Of a DNA stretch of 51,164 nt, positions 6,188 through 22,959 are shown piece after piece. The notes under the pieces were generated by a model. The model saw only the letters and a list, made by a program, of their open reading frames with translations. It ran no database searches and was not told the DNA's origin. The stretch is taken from assembly GCA_035310145.1 (NCBI GenBank), contig DATGEL010000083.1, positions 1-51,164 of the forward strand, written 5' to 3'. This DNA is from Dehalococcoidia bacterium. GTDB lineage: Bacteria; Chloroflexota; Dehalococcoidia; CAUJGQ01. Numbering within the stretch: position 1 is the first letter of the stretch; the number at the start of each line of letters is the position of its first letter. The translations under genes were made by a program, and so were the position numbers.

Positions 6188-8296
6188 CTACGCCTCGGCG
6201 GCAGCAGGAGCGAGGCGGCCGGGCTGCCCCAGCCAGCGGCTCATCTCCTCCGCCGGCATCGGCGGCGCCACATAGTAGGCCTGGCCCGCGTCGCAGCCGA
6301 GCCTGGCCAACCGCGCCCAGGTCTCGGCGTCTTCCACGCCTTCGGCCACCACCTGCAGACCCAGCGCGTGCGCCAGCTCGATCGCCGAGCGCACGATCAC
6401 CGCGTCGTTCTCGTTCGTCGCCATATCCAGCACGAACGACTTGTCGATCTTGATCTCATCGACCGGCAGCCGGTGCAGGTAGGCGAGCGAAGAGTAGCCG
6501 GTGCCGAAGTCGTCGATCGCGATGCGCACGCCCGTGCCGCGCAGGTGCTGCAGCACGATCAGCGCCGCGTCGGGATCGGCCATGATGCTGCTTTCCGTCA
6601 GCTCCAGCTTCAGGCTGGCGGCTGGCAGGCCGTGCTCGCGCAGCAGGGCGTCGATCAGTTGCGGCAGGTCCGGGTCGTGCAGGTTGCGCGCCGAGAGATT
6701 GACGGCCAGGCCGGTGTTCAGCCCCTGCCGTCGCCAGGCGGCGCACTGCCCGATGCCGGCCGTCAGCACCCAGCGCGTGAGGTCATTGATCAGCCCGGTG
6801 CGCTCGGCCAGCGGCACGAACTGGTCGGGGGTGAGCAGGTTGTAACGCGGGTGCTGCCAGCGCACCAGCGCCTCCACCCGGGTCGTATGGCCGGTGGCGA
6901 AGCGCACCACGGGCTGGTAGTGCAGCAGCAGCTCGTTGGCGACGATGGCGTGGCGCAGCTCGCTGAGCAGGGCGAGGCGGCCGGGACTATGCCAGTCTAC
7001 ATCCGGGCTGTAGAGGGCCATGCCGGCGCCGCTGCGCTTGGCCGCGTACATGGCGATGTCGGCGTAGCGCATCAGGTTCACCGCGTCGCCCGCGTGCTCC
7101 GGGTAGAGCGCGATGCCGATGCTGCCGCCGACATCGAGCCGGTAGCCCTCGATCACGCAGGGCCGCGCCAGCGCCATCAGCAGCTTCTCGGCGGCGATGT
7201 GCGCCGTGGCGGCGCTGGCTTCGGGCAGCACCACGGCGAACTCGTCGCCGCCGAGCCGCGCCACCGTGTCCGATTCGCGCAGCACCTGCGGCAGCCGCCG
7301 GCCGACCTCCCGCAGGATCAGATCGCCGGCGTGGTGGCCGAAGGTGTCGTTGATCTCCTTGAAGCGATCGAGGTCGAGGAAGAGCAAGGCCAGCGAATCG
7401 CCCTGGCGCTGGGCCACGTGGATCGCCTGCTCCAGCCGGTCCTGCAGCAGCGTGCGGTTGGGCAGGTCCGTCAGCGTGTCGTGCAAGGACAGCCGTTCCA
7501 GGTCCTCGTCGGCGCGATGGCGCTCGCTGACGTCCTGCAGGTAGACCGAGATGCCGTCGTCCGCGGCATGGGCGTGGATCGCAAACCAGGCGCCGGTGGC
7601 AGGCAGGCTCTCTTCGAAGTGGACGGAGATCCCCTCGGCCGCGGCCCGCTGCAGCTCCTGAAAGAGCGCGGTGGCCCGAAACGCCGTGAACTCCTCCCAG
7701 ATCGAGCGCCCGGCGAGGTCGGCGCGGGCGCGGCCCAGCAGCCGCTCGGCCCGCCCGTTGACGTAAGTGAAGCGCCACTCGCGATCGAGCGCAAAGAAGG
7801 CGTCGCTCATGCGCTCGAGCACGGTGGCGACGCGCGGCTCCGCCTGTTGAACGCGGTGTGGCTGTTCGGCGGGGCGGGCGGGCTGTTCCGCGCCGGTGCG
7901 CCCGCGCTCGCCCAGCTCGTGTACGATCGCGATCACATGGCGGGCCGGCGCCTCCCCCGCCGCCAGCGTGATCTCGATGGCGATCGCCGCGCCGTCTTTG
8001 GACCGCACGGTGAGTGCGGTCGGCGGGCCTGTGTCGATCGGCGTGCCCGCCGGCTGCCCCGCATTGAGCCGCAACGGCAAGAGCTCATCCAGCCGGAGAC
8101 CGAGCGCCTCGCTTGCACTGCGGCCGAAGATCGCCTCCGCCGCCGGGTTCCAGAGCAGAATGCGGCCCGAATCCGCGTCGGCGACGATCACGCCCTCGCA
8201 GATGCGCGAGCTGAGAAGCCCAAAATCAGCGTCTCCGGGCTGCACGGTGGACGCCTCCGCAGCGCGCCGGTAGGACGGCGCGACCGGCGCTTTCAT
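6188..8296 (-). CDS. PAS-PAS-GGDEF-EAL cyclic-di-GMP synthase/phosphodiesterase
   Basis: 702 residues from the preferred ATG at 8296. Two PAS sensor domains come first (opening around GVIVADADSGRILLWNPAAE and FFALDREWRFTYVNGRAERL). A GGDEF domain follows with an intact RLGGDEFAVV active site, then an EAL domain with EALVRW, DDFGTGYSS and EGVE. Both halves keep catalytic motifs, so it may make and break c-di-GMP; which activity dominates is unknown. No transmembrane helix is visible, so sensing is probably cytoplasmic. It converges on the TetR gene, with stops three bases apart. Confidence 0.92.
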   Translation of the reverse strand: MKAPVAPSYRRAAEASTVQPGDADFGLLSSRICEGVIVADADSGRILLWNPAAEAIFGRSASEALGLRLDELLPLRLNAGQPAGTPIDTGPPTALTVRSKDGAAIAIEITLAAGEAPARHVIAIVHELGERGRTGAEQPARPAEQPHRVQQAEPRVATVLERMSDAFFALDREWRFTYVNGRAERLLGRARADLAGRSIWEEFTAFRATALFQELQRAAAEGISVHFEESLPATGAWFAIHAHAADDGISVYLQDVSERHRADEDLERLSLHDTLTDLPNRTLLQDRLEQAIHVAQRQGDSLALLFLDLDRFKEINDTFGHHAGDLILREVGRRLPQVLRESDTVARLGGDEFAVVLPEASAATAHIAAEKLLMALARPCVIEGYRLDVGGSIGIALYPEHAGDAVNLMRYADIAMYAAKRSGAGMALYSPDVDWHSPGRLALLSELRHAIVANELLLHYQPVVRFATGHTTRVEALVRWQHPRYNLLTPDQFVPLAERTGLINDLTRWVLTAGIGQCAAWRRQGLNTGLAVNLSARNLHDPDLPQLIDALLREHGLPAASLKLELTESSIMADPDAALIVLQHLRGTGVRIAIDDFGTGYSSLAYLHRLPVDEIKIDKSFVLDMATNENDAVIVRSAIELAHALGLQVVAEGVEDAETWARLARLGCDAGQAYYVAPPMPAEEMSRWLGQPGRLAPAAAEA

Positions 8297-8472
8297 CGCT
8301 ATCGTACAGGAAAGCGCAAGCCGGGCGTGGCGCCATCGGTTACGATCCGGGAACGGCGGCGGCCGATGGCTGCACGGCGCGGCCGCGTGCGGCACAATGG
8401 AGGCGCGACCGCCGGCGTACGGCCGGAGAACGCGCATACCTGGAGCGGACGCAGGAAGGGGCGCAGGACGCC

Positions 8473-8724
8473 ATGGCCATGAATGAAGGGCTGCGGCAAG
8501 AACGGCACGAATCGCGGCTCTCGCACTTGCTCAGCGGCCGGCTCGCGCTCGCGGGGATCGCCGTCGTCGCCCTCGTCGTGTTCGTGTTGCAGAACCGGCG
8601 CACGGTGCGCATCGATCTGCTCTTCTGGCACGCCAATACCAGCATCGCCTGGGCGCTGATCGTGGCCGGGCTGCTGGGCGTGGCGGCCGCCCTGCTCTTT
8701 CCACGCCTGCGGCGCATGCTGTAG
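8473..8724 (+). CDS. LapA-domain (DUF1049-like) small membrane protein
   Basis: 83 residues with two membrane helices (about 24-40 and 53-75) joined by the short segment QNRRTVRIDLLFWHANTSIA. This matches the LapA/DUF1049 family, in which a hydrophobic helix is followed by N-x-x-V-x-V/I-x-FL and a second helix. In proteobacteria LapA acts in LPS assembly; in other phyla the role is unknown and I do not transfer it. It is divergent from the GGDEF-EAL gene and just upstream of the DUF1330 gene. Confidence 0.7.
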   Translation: MAMNEGLRQERHESRLSHLLSGRLALAGIAVVALVVFVLQNRRTVRIDLLFWHANTSIAWALIVAGLLGVAAALLFPRLRRML

Positions 8725-8781
8725 GCCGCCGGCGCGCCGCGCCACGGGAGGTCGGCCCTGCGATGGACAAGGAGCCATGCC

Positions 8782-9072
8782 GTGTCGGTGTACTGTGTTG
8801 CCGAAGTCGACGTGACCGATGTCGAAGGGTTTGCTCCGTATAGTACGGCTGTCCCGGCGACGATCGCCCAGTACGGCGGCCGCTACCTGGCGCGTGGCGG
8901 TCGTGTCGAGTCGCACGAAGGCGGCTGGCAGCCGAAGCGGCTGGTGATCGTCGAGTTCCCGAGCATGGAACAGGCGCTCGCCTGGTACAACTCCGCGGAG
9001 TACCGCGATCTCAAAGCGATCCGCCAGCGCTGCGCGGAGACGAAGTTCGTGATCGTCGAGGGCGTGAGCTGA
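8782..9072 (+). CDS. DUF1330 domain-containing protein
   Basis: 96 residues with a ferredoxin-like dimeric alpha/beta barrel pattern: Y-C-V-A-E-V-D-V opening, then GRYLARGG, LVIVEFPSMEQALAWYNS and EYRDLKAIRQ. These are the conserved blocks of DUF1330. GTG at 8782 is used, with AAGGAG seven bases upstream. The family's biochemical role is unknown. It follows the LapA-like gene by 57 bases and could share its transcript. Confidence 0.85.
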   Translation: MSVYCVAEVDVTDVEGFAPYSTAVPATIAQYGGRYLARGGRVESHEGGWQPKRLVIVEFPSMEQALAWYNSAEYRDLKAIRQRCAETKFVIVEGVS

Positions 9073-18723: not shown

Positions 18724-19446
18724 ATGCCTGGTCCGCTGGCCCTGGCAGGCTCCGGCGAATTTCTGCCGGAGATGGAAGCGACCGACCGGCTGCTGCTGGA
18801 CGCGGCCCTGCCCGCGGCGGGATATGCCCTGATCGTACCCACTGCCTCGGCGCTGGAGCCGGGCATGCCGGAGGAGTGGGCGGATCGCGGCATCAAGCAC
18901 TTCCGCGACCGGCTCGGCATTCCGGCGCAGGCGGCGCTGATCCTCGACTATGAGATGGCCGACGAGCGTTTCGTGCCACTGGTACAAGCAGCTCGTTTGA
19001 TCTACTTCTCCGGCGGTAACCCGCAGCACCTAGTGAAGAGCATGGGCGGCAGCGCCTTCTGGGCGGCGGTGCTGGCACGCTGGCACGAGGGCGCCGCGCT
19101 GGCCGGTTGCAGCGCCGGCGCGATGATGCTGGGCGAGGTGCTGCAGAACATCGTCGGCCGCTCGGCGGAGACGCCCATAGCGCTGGGCGTGCTGCCGGGC
19201 ATCAGCGTGATCCCGCACTTCGATCGCATCGAACAGTTCCGCCCCGGCGCCCTGGCCGCCGTGCGCGAGCGCCGGCCGCGGGGCATTACGCTGCTGGGTG
19301 TCGATGAAGTCACCGCCGCGATCTGCATCGACGGCGCCTGGTCGGTGAGCGGGCGCGGCAAGGTGCTGATCGTCGGCGATGACGGCGAGCTGACCTGCAG
19401 CGCGGGCGAACGGCTGCCGCTGGCCTTACCGGCGACGGCGGGCTGA
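18724..19446 (+). CDS. Peptidase S51 / cyanophycinase-like Ser amidotransferase fold
   Basis: 240 residues. The nucleophile elbow GCSAGAMML carries the Ser in G-x-S-A-G, and YFSGGNPQHLV is the substrate-loop block typical of S51 (peptidase E and cyanophycinase). GIKHFRDRLGI and the late GVDEVTAAICIDGAWSVSGRGKV complete the family pattern. It probably cleaves an Asp-containing dipeptide or related small peptide in the cytoplasm. The exact substrate cannot be set, and cyanophycinase itself is less likely because no cyanophycin synthetase is nearby. It is separated from the following fusion gene by a heptamer hairpin. Confidence 0.8.
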   Translation: MPGPLALAGSGEFLPEMEATDRLLLDAALPAAGYALIVPTASALEPGMPEEWADRGIKHFRDRLGIPAQAALILDYEMADERFVPLVQAARLIYFSGGNPQHLVKSMGGSAFWAAVLARWHEGAALAGCSAGAMMLGEVLQNIVGRSAETPIALGVLPGISVIPHFDRIEQFRPGALAAVRERRPRGITLLGVDEVTAAICIDGAWSVSGRGKVLIVGDDGELTCSAGERLPLALPATAG

Positions 19447-19534: not shown

Positions 19535-19593
19535 GGTGACAGGTGACAGGCGCCAGTCTCGGCCACCACCCCTGTGCCCCGTCACCTGTCATC
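19535..19593. repeat. Heptamer-built hairpin before the cysS fusion gene
   Basis: GGTGACA GGTGACA GGCGCCA (19535-19555) faces TGTGCCC CGTCACC TGTCATC (19573-19593); the outer 14 bp pair well (GATGACAGGTGAC against GGTGACAGGTGAC). It ends 17 bases before the start codon at 19610. Confidence 0.65.
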
Positions 19594-19609: not shown

Positions 19610-21778
19610 ATGGGTCCGTTCCAGTTCTTCAACACGCTGAACCGCCGCGTCGAGCCGTTCGCCCCGCTGCGGCCGCCCGCGGTGCTGATGTACACCTGCG
19701 GACCGACCGTCTACCGCCCGGTGCACATCGGCAACCTGCGCTCCTACCTGATGGCCGACTGGTTGCGGCGCGCCCTGGCCCGCGGCGGCTACGAGGTGCG
19801 CCAGGTGGTGAACATCACGGACGTTGGCCACATGCGACAGGAGCAGCTCGACCGCGGCGAGGATAAAGTTGTGGCCGCGGCGCTGGCTGCCGGGCAGACG
19901 CCGGCCGAGATCGCCGCCTTCTACACGCGCGGCTACCTCGACGACCTGCAGACGCTGCACATTCTGCCCGCGGCCGTGAACCCGAAGGCCACCGAGCACG
20001 TGCCGGAGATGATCGCCCTGACCCAGCGGCTGCAGGAGCGCGGGCACGCCTACGTGGCCGGCGGCAACGTCTACTTCGACGTCGGCTCCTTCCCGCGCTA
20101 CGGTCAGCTATCGGGCAACACGCGCGGCGAGGCGCTGGCCGAGGGCGTGCGCGTACAAACCGACCCGCTGAAGCGCGACCCGCGCGATTTCGCCCTCTGG
20201 AAGGCGGCGGAGGCCGATCGCACGCTCAAGTGGCCGAGTCCCTGGGGCGACGGCTTCCCCGGCTGGCACATCGAGTGCTCGGCGATGGCGATCAAGCACC
20301 TCGGCGCCCAGCTCGATCTGCACACCGGCGGCGTGGACAACATCTTCCCCCACCACGAGGACGAGTGCGCCCAGAGCGAGGCGGCGACCGACCTGCGCTT
20401 CGTCGGGCACTGGCTGCACGGCCAGCACCTGCTCGTGGACGGCCTGAAGATGGCGAAATCGACCGGCAACGCCTACACGCTGGCAGAGCTGGCGGCGCGC
20501 GGCTTCGATCCGCTCGCCTTCCGCTATCTCTGTCTCACCGCGCACTACCGCCATCAGCTGAACTTCACCTTCGAGGCGCTGCGTTCGGCGCAGCAGGCGC
20601 TGAGCCGCCTGCGCGAGCGCGTCTCACTGGCGGCGCCGCGCGCCGATGCCGCCTGGGCGCGGCCCTGGCTCGAACGCTTCGAGGCGGCGCTTGAGCACGA
20701 CCTCAACCTGCCGGAGGCGCTGGGCGCGGTCTGGCAGATGCTGCACGCGCCCGGCGAGGAAGCGGCCAAGGTCGCCGCCCTGCTCGAGGCGGACACGGTG
20801 CTTGGGCTCGACCTTGAGGCGGCACGCGAGGAGCGGCTGCCCGCGCCGATCGCCTCGCTGGTGCACGTGCGTGAGCGTGCCCGGCGGCACCACGACTTTG
20901 TCCGTGCCGACAGCCTGCGCGAGGTGCTTCACGCCCGGCAGTTCGAGGTACACGATCGCGGCGACTCGACCTTCGCGCTGCCGCATCCGCCGCCGCCCGC
21001 CGAGCAGGGCGTCACCCGCGCGGAGGAGATCGCCTCGCGCCTGCACGAGCCCGACGCCTGTGAGGTCACCATCGGCCTGGTCATCAACAACGCGGCGGAT
21101 GATCTGCTGCGCTGCGCCCGCAGCATCCTCAGCGCCTGCGCCGGGCGCGCCTTCGAGCTGCTGGTGATGGACAACGGCTCGACCGACGACACCCGCGCCC
21201 GGCTGGACGAGCTGGCCTCGGCCGAGCCGCGCCTGCACGTGATCCGCGCCGACCACAACCTGGGCGAGGGCGCCGGCCGCAACGCCGTGTTGAAGCAGGC
21301 GCTCGGGCGCACCGTCGTGCTCGTGGACACCTGCATCGAGTTCAGCGGCGACCCGCTCGGCCCGCTGCTGGCGGCGCTGGAGCAGCCCGGTGTGGGCGCG
21401 GCGGGCGCCTACGGACTCGTCGCCAACAGCCTGCACTGCTTCGACCCGGCCGAGGGCGAGCCGATCGACGCGCTCGAAGGCTACCTCGTCGCCCTGCGCC
21501 GCGCCCGCGTGGCCGAGGTCGGCCTGATGGACGAGAAGTACCGCTTCTACCGCAACCTCGATCTCGACTACAGCTACCAGATCCGCGAGCACGGCCTGCG
21601 GCTCGCCGCCGTGCCGAACCTGCCGCTGATCATGCATCCGCACCGCGTCTGGCACAGCCTGAGCGATGAGCAGCGCGACTCGCTGAGCAAGAAGAACTTC
21701 AACCGCTTCCTGCACCGCTGGCGCGAGCGCGCCGGCCAGCGCGTGGCCGTGGCCGGCGGCGCCGGCAGCCAGCGGTGA
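19610..21778 (+). CDS. cysS: Fusion: cysteinyl-tRNA synthetase + GT2 glycosyltransferase
   Basis: 722 residues. Residues 1-460 are a complete class I CysRS: zinc ligands at YTCGPTVY, HIECSAMA and FPHHEDE, the HIGH-type PVHIGNLRS, GLKMAKSTGN as the KMSKS loop (Ser to Ala in the third position), and a DALR-type anticodon region (LEHDLNLPEALGAV). After a Pro-rich linker (455-485) comes a GT2 domain, CEVTIGLVINNAADDLL, LLVMDNGSTDD and FYRNLDLDYSYQIREHGLRL. There is no stop between them. ATG 19610 replaces an upstream in-frame ATG inside the hairpin. The final TGA overlaps the next gene's GTG. The synthetase call is certain; what the fused transferase glycosylates is unknown. Confidence 0.9.
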   Translation: MGPFQFFNTLNRRVEPFAPLRPPAVLMYTCGPTVYRPVHIGNLRSYLMADWLRRALARGGYEVRQVVNITDVGHMRQEQLDRGEDKVVAAALAAGQTPAEIAAFYTRGYLDDLQTLHILPAAVNPKATEHVPEMIALTQRLQERGHAYVAGGNVYFDVGSFPRYGQLSGNTRGEALAEGVRVQTDPLKRDPRDFALWKAAEADRTLKWPSPWGDGFPGWHIECSAMAIKHLGAQLDLHTGGVDNIFPHHEDECAQSEAATDLRFVGHWLHGQHLLVDGLKMAKSTGNAYTLAELAARGFDPLAFRYLCLTAHYRHQLNFTFEALRSAQQALSRLRERVSLAAPRADAAWARPWLERFEAALEHDLNLPEALGAVWQMLHAPGEEAAKVAALLEADTVLGLDLEAAREERLPAPIASLVHVRERARRHHDFVRADSLREVLHARQFEVHDRGDSTFALPHPPPPAEQGVTRAEEIASRLHEPDACEVTIGLVINNAADDLLRCARSILSACAGRAFELLVMDNGSTDDTRARLDELASAEPRLHVIRADHNLGEGAGRNAVLKQALGRTVVLVDTCIEFSGDPLGPLLAALEQPGVGAAGAYGLVANSLHCFDPAEGEPIDALEGYLVALRRARVAEVGLMDEKYRFYRNLDLDYSYQIREHGLRLAAVPNLPLIMHPHRVWHSLSDEQRDSLSKKNFNRFLHRWRERAGQRVAVAGGAGSQR

Positions 21779-22959
21779 ACGAGCCGCCGCTGCGTGTGCT
21801 CTTTCTCACGCCGTATTACAAGCCCTATCTCGGCGGCATCGAGCGGGTGATCGAGCGGCTTTCGGCCGGCATGCGGCGCCGCGCCGACGTCGCCGCCGTC
21901 GGCGTGCTCACCACGCACTTCGAGTTTCCCCGCCACTGGATGGAGGGGCTGCCGGCGCGCGAGCGGATGGACGGCGGCGTCGAGATCATCCGCCTGCCGG
22001 CCTGGCCCAGGGTGGCGCCGCCGTACTTCTCCGTGCCGCTCGTCTGGTTTCCGCCGCGGGCGATCGGCGCGGCAATCCGCGCCTTCCGCCCGAACGTGCT
22101 GCACTGGGTGGGCGACGGCTGGTTCTGGGGGCATTACTTCAGCGCCCGCAGCGCGCCGCCGGGCACCGCCGTGATCTTCTCGCCCTCGTTCCACACGCTG
22201 ACGCGGGACAAGTTCTGGCTGCAGCCGGTCAACATCGCGCTCTGCCGCCGCGCCGACCGCGTGACGGCGCTCTCACCGCTGGAACGGCGCGCCGTGCATC
22301 GCACCTACCATGTGCCAGCGCGCAAGCAGGTGGTCGTGCCCTGGGGCGTCGATCCGGACGATGCGCCGCCGGAGCCGCGGCCGGCAGGCGCGCCGCTCAC
22401 CGTGCTCTGCGTCGGCCGCCTGGGCGAGCACAAGAACCAGCAGTTCCTGATCGAGGCCTTCGCCGCCGCCCAGCCGCGACTGCAGCGGCCGGCGCGGCTG
22501 GTGCTCGTCGGGCGCGACGAGGGCGGGCAGCAGGCGATCGAGCGCCAGGTCCGCGACCTTGGCCTTGCAGACAAAGTCCTGATCACGGGCGAGCTGACGG
22601 ACGCGGAAGTGCGCGCCTGGTACCACCGCGCGGACCTCTTCGCTCTGTTCTCACACTACGAGGCGTTCGGCCTGGTCTTCTTCGAGGCGATGGTCGCCGG
22701 CGTGCCCGTGCTCACGCATCGGGTGGGCGCCAACGCGCAACTGCTGCGCGAGGGCGCCACCGTCTGCCCGGAGCACGATCGCGCCGCCGCGACGGAGAGC
22801 CTGGTGCGGCTGCTCAACGATGACGCGGAACGGCAGCAACTCGGCGCCCAGGCGCGCCGCTACGCCACGACCTTCACCTGGCCGCCGGTGCTGGAGCGCT
22901 TCGTCGGCCTCTACCGCGAGGCGCTGGCCGAGCGTGAGGCAACAGGGAACCGGGAATAG
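21775..22959 (+). CDS. GT4-family glycosyltransferase
   Basis: 394 residues with the GT-B two-domain fold. The N-terminal domain opens VLFLTPYYKPYLGGIERVIERL; the C-terminal domain has VLCVGRLGEHKNQQFLIEA and the E-x7-E motif in EAFGLVFFEAM. It transfers a nucleotide-activated sugar to a lipid, sugar or small-molecule acceptor. GTG 21775 overlaps the previous stop by four bases, so synthesis is coupled to the CysRS-GT2 fusion. The last residues (ATGNRE) are encoded by heptamer units GGCAACA GGGAACC GGGAATA, which also hold the stop. Relation to MshA is possible but not demonstrable here. Confidence 0.88.
   Translation: MNEPPLRVLFLTPYYKPYLGGIERVIERLSAGMRRRADVAAVGVLTTHFEFPRHWMEGLPARERMDGGVEIIRLPAWPRVAPPYFSVPLVWFPPRAIGAAIRAFRPNVLHWVGDGWFWGHYFSARSAPPGTAVIFSPSFHTLTRDKFWLQPVNIALCRRADRVTALSPLERRAVHRTYHVPARKQVVVPWGVDPDDAPPEPRPAGAPLTVLCVGRLGEHKNQQFLIEAFAAAQPRLQRPARLVLVGRDEGGQQAIERQVRDLGLADKVLITGELTDAEVRAWYHRADLFALFSHYEAFGLVFFEAMVAGVPVLTHRVGANAQLLREGATVCPEHDRAAATESLVRLLNDDAERQQLGAQARRYATTFTWPPVLERFVGLYREALAEREATGNRE

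Follow-up and report, generated by a model that had tools for sequence, protein, structure and literature searches.

Specialised copies of tRNA synthetases often expose unsuspected metabolism, as when MshC gave mycothiol. LysX of mycobacteria is a lysyl-tRNA synthetase (LysRS) fused to MprF, and thereby pairs a second synthetase with an enzyme that employs the synthetase product for a purpose other than translation. For duplicated cysteinyl-tRNA synthetases (CysRS), a 2022 review describes the functions of CysRS* and MshC, and a synthetase–glycosyltransferase fusion is absent from its list of paralogue functions (PMC9437257). CysRS* is devoid of an anticodon-binding domain and works with SelC* and SelB* (PMC9437257). 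Our own literature search for a CysRS–glycosyltransferase fusion found none, and the conserved fusion of CysRS with a family 2 glycosyltransferase (GT2) that we report here appears to be undescribed. Specialised synthetase paralogues are already known; the new element is the GT2 partner domain.

The fusion gene lies in a stretch of 51,164 nucleotides from a Dehalococcoidia bacterium (contig DATGEL010000083.1), to which we refer as the window. The relevant features are the following:

18724–19446, + strand: peptidase S51 family gene, immediately 5' of the fusion (PF03575)
19610–21778, + strand: CysRS–GT2 fusion gene, 722 aa from the ATG at 19610 (single open reading frame, Pfam and NCBIfam matches, full-length homologues)
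19610–20968, + strand: CysRS part of the fusion (TIGR00435 at residues 5–452; invariant zinc ligands and anticodon-reading residues; fold match to 1u0b)
20969–21040, + strand: linker, residues ~454–477, partly conserved in the fusion alignment as S-S-x-[DE]-V-x-S
21041–21733, + strand: GT2 glycosyltransferase domain, residues ~478–708, with a GT-A fold (PF00535; separate model)
21775–22959, + strand: GT4 glycosyltransferase gene, 394 aa (open reading frame; PF00534 and PF13439)

A preliminary description of this DNA, made from the sequence alone, reported that a complete CysRS continues into a complete GT2 domain, and this arrangement is real. Both halves are encoded by one open reading frame with no stop codon at the domain junction, and an alternative in-frame start (GTG at 19574) leads to the same end at 21778. 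The CysRS equivalog model TIGR00435 scores 399.8 bits (cut-off: 340), PF01406 matches residues 18–328, and PF00535 matches residues 492–597 with 66 bits (cut-off: 23.3). An AlphaFold model of the whole fusion is good (pLDDT 86, pTM 0.81), and its best match in the PDB is E. coli CysRS in complex with tRNA-Cys (1u0b). Modelled separately (pLDDT 86.7), the GT2 half adopts a GT-A fold that matches ppGalNAc-T2 and other GT-A enzymes with Z values of ~21; fold searches with this model returned the general GT-A fold only, with no hint as to the substrate. The alignment of fusions shows little or no variation at GT2 residues E516, D521, D573, D651 and H678, and D521 and D573 sit in the usual motifs of the GT-A fold. 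From this fold and these motifs, we infer that the GT2 half is catalytically active in sugar transfer, with a nucleotide sugar as donor.

The preliminary description had allowed that the fusion could be an accident of gene order or of assembly, or that its GT2 part might decay between relatives. Of the 393 genomes sampled from the same class, 41 yielded the full-length architecture in a protein search, at ~43–56% identity. A GT2-domain profile detected ~40 fused copies in 301 genomes sampled across Chloroflexota. In all, ~80 sampled genomes from many families and classes keep the two domains together, even though unfused relatives of each domain exist. These full-length homologues rule out an assembly error or a chance fusion, and the GT2 residues stay conserved throughout. 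Because the same architecture recurs across class and phylum, the fusion is an old, maintained gene. The GT2-domain profile also found stand-alone GT2 relatives; no CysRS adjoins these, and their neighbours are unrelated (rhomboid, G6PD, ETF, carboxyl transferase). In a contig scan, the only full-length fusions among the matches listed came from the Chloroflexi MAGs WY3.bin53 (L034) and SZUA-185 (L035).

We then looked for further CysRS genes, since a second stand-alone cysS had been proposed as a check. Such a gene was found: the window genome holds two CysRS-family genes besides the fusion, namely a canonical CysRS gene that adjoins cysE and ispF-like genes, and a third paralogue of 403 aa (L002:1453-2664, contig C42). 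Since other cysS genes are present, the fused copy is extra and specialised. An additional CysRS accompanies the fusion in all 30 tested genomes of the class and in nearly all tested fusion genomes of other classes, including the single-contig genomes G453 and G474. The fusion is the only CysRS in two assemblies, G405 (57% complete) and G514 (88% complete, 600 contigs), and since both are incomplete, this status cannot serve to prove that the fusion charges tRNA.

In a tree of 163 CysRS sequences, the fusions cluster with two unfused sisters in a single clade (support 0.998) that is nested in a full-length CysRS group of Spirochaetes, Clostridia, Patescibacteria and others. An insertion after the NITD motif is common to the fusions and the Borrelia-like enzymes. 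The canonical CysRS of Chloroflexota form a separate clade (support 0.989), and the short third paralogues cluster with MshC (8hfm; support 0.997). These short paralogues (~390–403 aa; L002, L190–L199) occur as separate genes in some of the Chloroflexota genomes with the fusion and have no anticodon domain. One unfused sister of the fusion family (L143:4457-5833, genome G016) stands in tandem with another CysRS and has lost a zinc cysteine (WHIEDS), a zinc glutamate (HHEDV) and also the KMSKS loop (now RMVVI), and is therefore probably catalytically dead or repurposed.

The preliminary description had likened the fusion and the adjoining GT4 gene to MshC and MshA of mycothiol synthesis. This analogy is not supported. 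In the tree the fusions fall among full-length synthetases, away from MshC; their anticodon-reading residues are kept; and the fusion scores 219.1 bits against the MshC model TIGR03447 (cut-off: 485.1). The tree and the domain content together rule out an MshC origin of the CysRS half. The GT4 protein, with 82.5 bits against the MshA model TIGR03449 (cut-off: 462.5), is far below the threshold and is rarely found beside the fusion.

Examination of individual residues suggests that the CysRS half is intact. The zinc ligands C28, C209, H234 and E238 (E. coli numbering) are present in the window protein and in all aligned fusions, one of which is gapped at C28. The E. coli enzyme holds anticodon base G34 through R427 and D436; this base stacks on W432, and water bridges it to R423 and D436 (PMC12684709). 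The window fusion carries R, R, F and D at positions 423, 427, 432 and 436. All 36 class fusions keep R423, R427 and D436, and all but one of them have an aromatic residue (Tyr, Phe or Trp) at position 432, the exception being a His. Among fusions from other classes, R427 and D436 are kept in 31/31 and R423 in 30/31. The KMSKS loop reads KMAKS in the window, as previously noted, and likewise in 31/36 class fusions, 31/31 fusions from other classes and 16/77 unfused relatives. Because this variant is common among fusions and also occurs in unfused relatives, we do not regard it as a sign of decay. At matched identity of the catalytic domain, fusions show lower conservation of the anticodon region (0.31) than do unfused relatives (0.41) and canonical enzymes (0.55), which suggests that some constraint in this region may be relaxed. 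Judged from the kept residues, our reading is that the fusion retains tRNA-Cys binding with some relaxation, and that the CysRS half would load cysteine onto tRNA-Cys. A scan of the fusion loci found no tRNA-Cys gene beside them.

The genes around the fusion vary. The GT4 gene begins with a GTG at 21775 and the fusion ends with a TGA at 21778, which bears out the four-base overlap noted earlier. Among the loci inspected, only the window and L248 have a GT4 gene adjoining the fusion, and that of L248 is 46% identical and directly 3' of the fusion; as a conserved partner this gene was rejected. The peptidase S51 family gene is weakly associated, as it is also found near the fusion in the distant genomes of L034, L251 and L252. 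Downstream of the fusion, L142 and L149 carry CcdA and thioredoxin-like genes. Locus L145 has a downstream arsenite-methyltransferase-like gene (7998-8882, + strand; NF008823, 291.4 bits vs 263), and homologues occur in the fusion neighbourhoods of L035, L144, L148 and L152.

The most frequent companion lies upstream. Among 40 class fusion loci with usable upstream sequence, 30 have a glutaredoxin-like gene on the same strand, 35–194 bases before the fusion. The encoded proteins are Uxx-star-like with ~70 aa in 28 cases and mycoredoxin-like in the other two, where such a glutaredoxin replaces the Uxx-star-like gene (L170:222-455 and L173:5680-5865, both + strand). The redoxin is absent upstream of the fusion in the remaining ten class loci, including that of the window, and in all eight inspected loci from other classes. 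The window genome contains three glutaredoxin-family matches elsewhere, one with an in-frame TGA. Of the 41 fusion genomes, 34 match the redoxin profile, compared with 34 of the 352 other genomes (Fisher p ~1e-23, uncorrected for kinship), and each of the 28 best matches is located immediately upstream of a fusion. These observations support part of the earlier hint at a thiol pathway, in that most class relatives have a glutaredoxin-type gene at this position; the window has none there, and the comparison with MshC and MshA is not supported.

In 25 of the 28 Uxx-star-like genes, the reading frame crosses a TGA in frame, located at a Gly-x site near the C-terminus, and then stops within a few codons. 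The resulting ends read GEHG-U-E-I-[ST]-stop or GESG-U-H-F-Q-stop (L142, L149, L150 and ~22 further class loci), and homologues with Cys at this site (L035, L152, L169, L172) end in GCLFQ-stop. In two loci a second in-frame TGA occurs at the N-terminal redox Cys (L147:10114-10371, − strand; L176:5995-6204, + strand). When the sequences that follow the UGA were aligned with plain MAFFT, RNAalifold gave no consensus pairs because the stem lengths vary, and we used a per-sequence stem count in place of a consensus fold. By this measure, 21 of 23 distinct sequences contain a hairpin of five or more stem pairs that starts ~14–20 bases beyond the C-terminal TGA, compared to 36% of shuffles. A tRNA-Sec was detected at the curated cut-off in 29/30 fusion genomes, near the fusion in only one of ~50 loci (L147). 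The in-frame TGA at a Cys site, the hairpin and the tRNA-Sec indicate that the upstream redoxins are probably short selenoproteins, which gene callers would truncate.

How might this bifunctional protein work? Our preferred proposal, which the sequences leave at roughly an even chance of being correct, is that the fusion is an auxiliary tRNA-charging CysRS permanently coupled to a GT2 glycosyltransferase, for a specialised, redox-linked use of activated cysteine. The CysRS half would activate cysteine with ATP at the zinc site and load it onto tRNA-Cys, and the GT2 half would glycosylate an acceptor with a nucleotide sugar as donor. Translation would be served by the separate CysRS and the fusion reserved for redox-linked chemistry instead of bulk protein synthesis. 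Such a specialised role seems most likely because a separate CysRS translates and most class relatives have the upstream redoxin. In the window, the GT2 half probably works with the product of the overlapping GT4 gene. More speculatively, and rather doubtfully, this bifunctional enzyme of Chloroflexota may make a cysteine–sugar compound or a cysteine-dependent glycoconjugate, with a dedicated selenocysteine glutaredoxin as partner. If true, this would be a new thiol-redox system that couples activated cysteine, possibly borne by tRNA, to sugar transfer.

The fusion could also be a thiol-cofactor enzyme in the manner of MshC, with GT2 (here together with GT4) building an amino-sugar acceptor, the CysRS half adding cysteine without tRNA, and the redoxin using the resulting thiol. 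We consider this tRNA-independent role unlikely, and less likely than tRNA charging, although it accounts for the redoxin link more simply. It is consistent with the glutaredoxin-type genes upstream of most class loci, the two mycoredoxin-like cases among them, with the CcdA and thioredoxin-like genes of L142 and L149, with the status of the fusion as an extra CysRS and with the somewhat relaxed anticodon region. However, the CysRS half is phylogenetically apart from MshC, no mycothiol-type deacetylase or acetyltransferase was seen among the scanned fusion neighbours, and a tRNA-independent enzyme would have to account for anticodon-reading residues that are kept in essentially all fusions. 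The fusion might also be an ordinary second CysRS that serves as a stress or back-up copy, with GT2 as a passenger domain on an unrelated task: duplicated synthetases are common, and the CysRS half looks fully functional from sequence and model. That the two domains and their partly conserved linker persist together across families and classes, with GT2 catalytic residues conserved, makes a mere passenger distinctly improbable.

A very unlikely alternative is that the CysRS half is a tRNA-binding platform from which the GT2 domain glycosylates tRNA-Cys or its cysteine. Fusion of a tRNA-binding enzyme with kept tRNA contacts to an apparently intact glycosyltransferase invites this idea, yet GT2 enzymes of GT-A fold act mostly on sugars, lipids and peptides, and no modification gene recurs beside the fusion. 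Finally, since the adjoining gene usually encodes a probable selenoprotein and nearly all fusion genomes tested have a tRNA-Sec, the fusion might take part in selenocysteine-linked decoding, as does CysRS* of Desulfobacterales, which provides cysteine at UGA codons. This we find hardly credible: the fusion keeps the residues for a GCA anticodon and has a tRNA-Sec nearby in L147 alone, while CysRS* has no anticodon-binding domain and operates together with SelC* and SelB* (PMC9437257).

Our preferred reading of an auxiliary, tRNA-charging enzyme with redox-linked function can be set against the known systems. The coupling to a probable selenoprotein redoxin offers a testable lead on the thiol and redox chemistry of a large, mostly uncultured phylum. 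Like the Uxx-star glutaredoxin-like selenoproteins (NF041212), this ~70-aa product bears the signature of the redoxin fold and a Gly-Sec motif at its C-terminus. It differs from them in that it ends in Gly-Sec-x-x-x-stop and stays below the NF041212 cut-off (54.4 bits vs 66 for the L142 redoxin translated up to the TGA). With PRK14536/Borrelia-like full-length CysRS, the fusion shares architecture, zinc ligands, HIGH-type and KMSKS-type loops, the anticodon-binding domain and the clade; unlike these enzymes, it is in every case an additional copy, with a GT2 domain appended at the C-terminus. MshC resembles the fusion as a specialised paralogue that stands beside a normal CysRS and activates cysteine by CysRS-family chemistry. 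In contrast to the fusion, which keeps the anticodon-binding domain, MshC is without this domain, has no glycosyltransferase attached and groups in a different clade. CysRS* of Desulfobacterales is likewise an additional CysRS whose genomic setting connects it to selenocysteine, but the fusion has the anticodon domain that CysRS* is missing, and falls outside that group. The LysX pairing of synthetase and partner differs in one further respect: MprF uses aminoacyl-tRNA, whereas a GT2 enzyme normally uses a nucleotide sugar.
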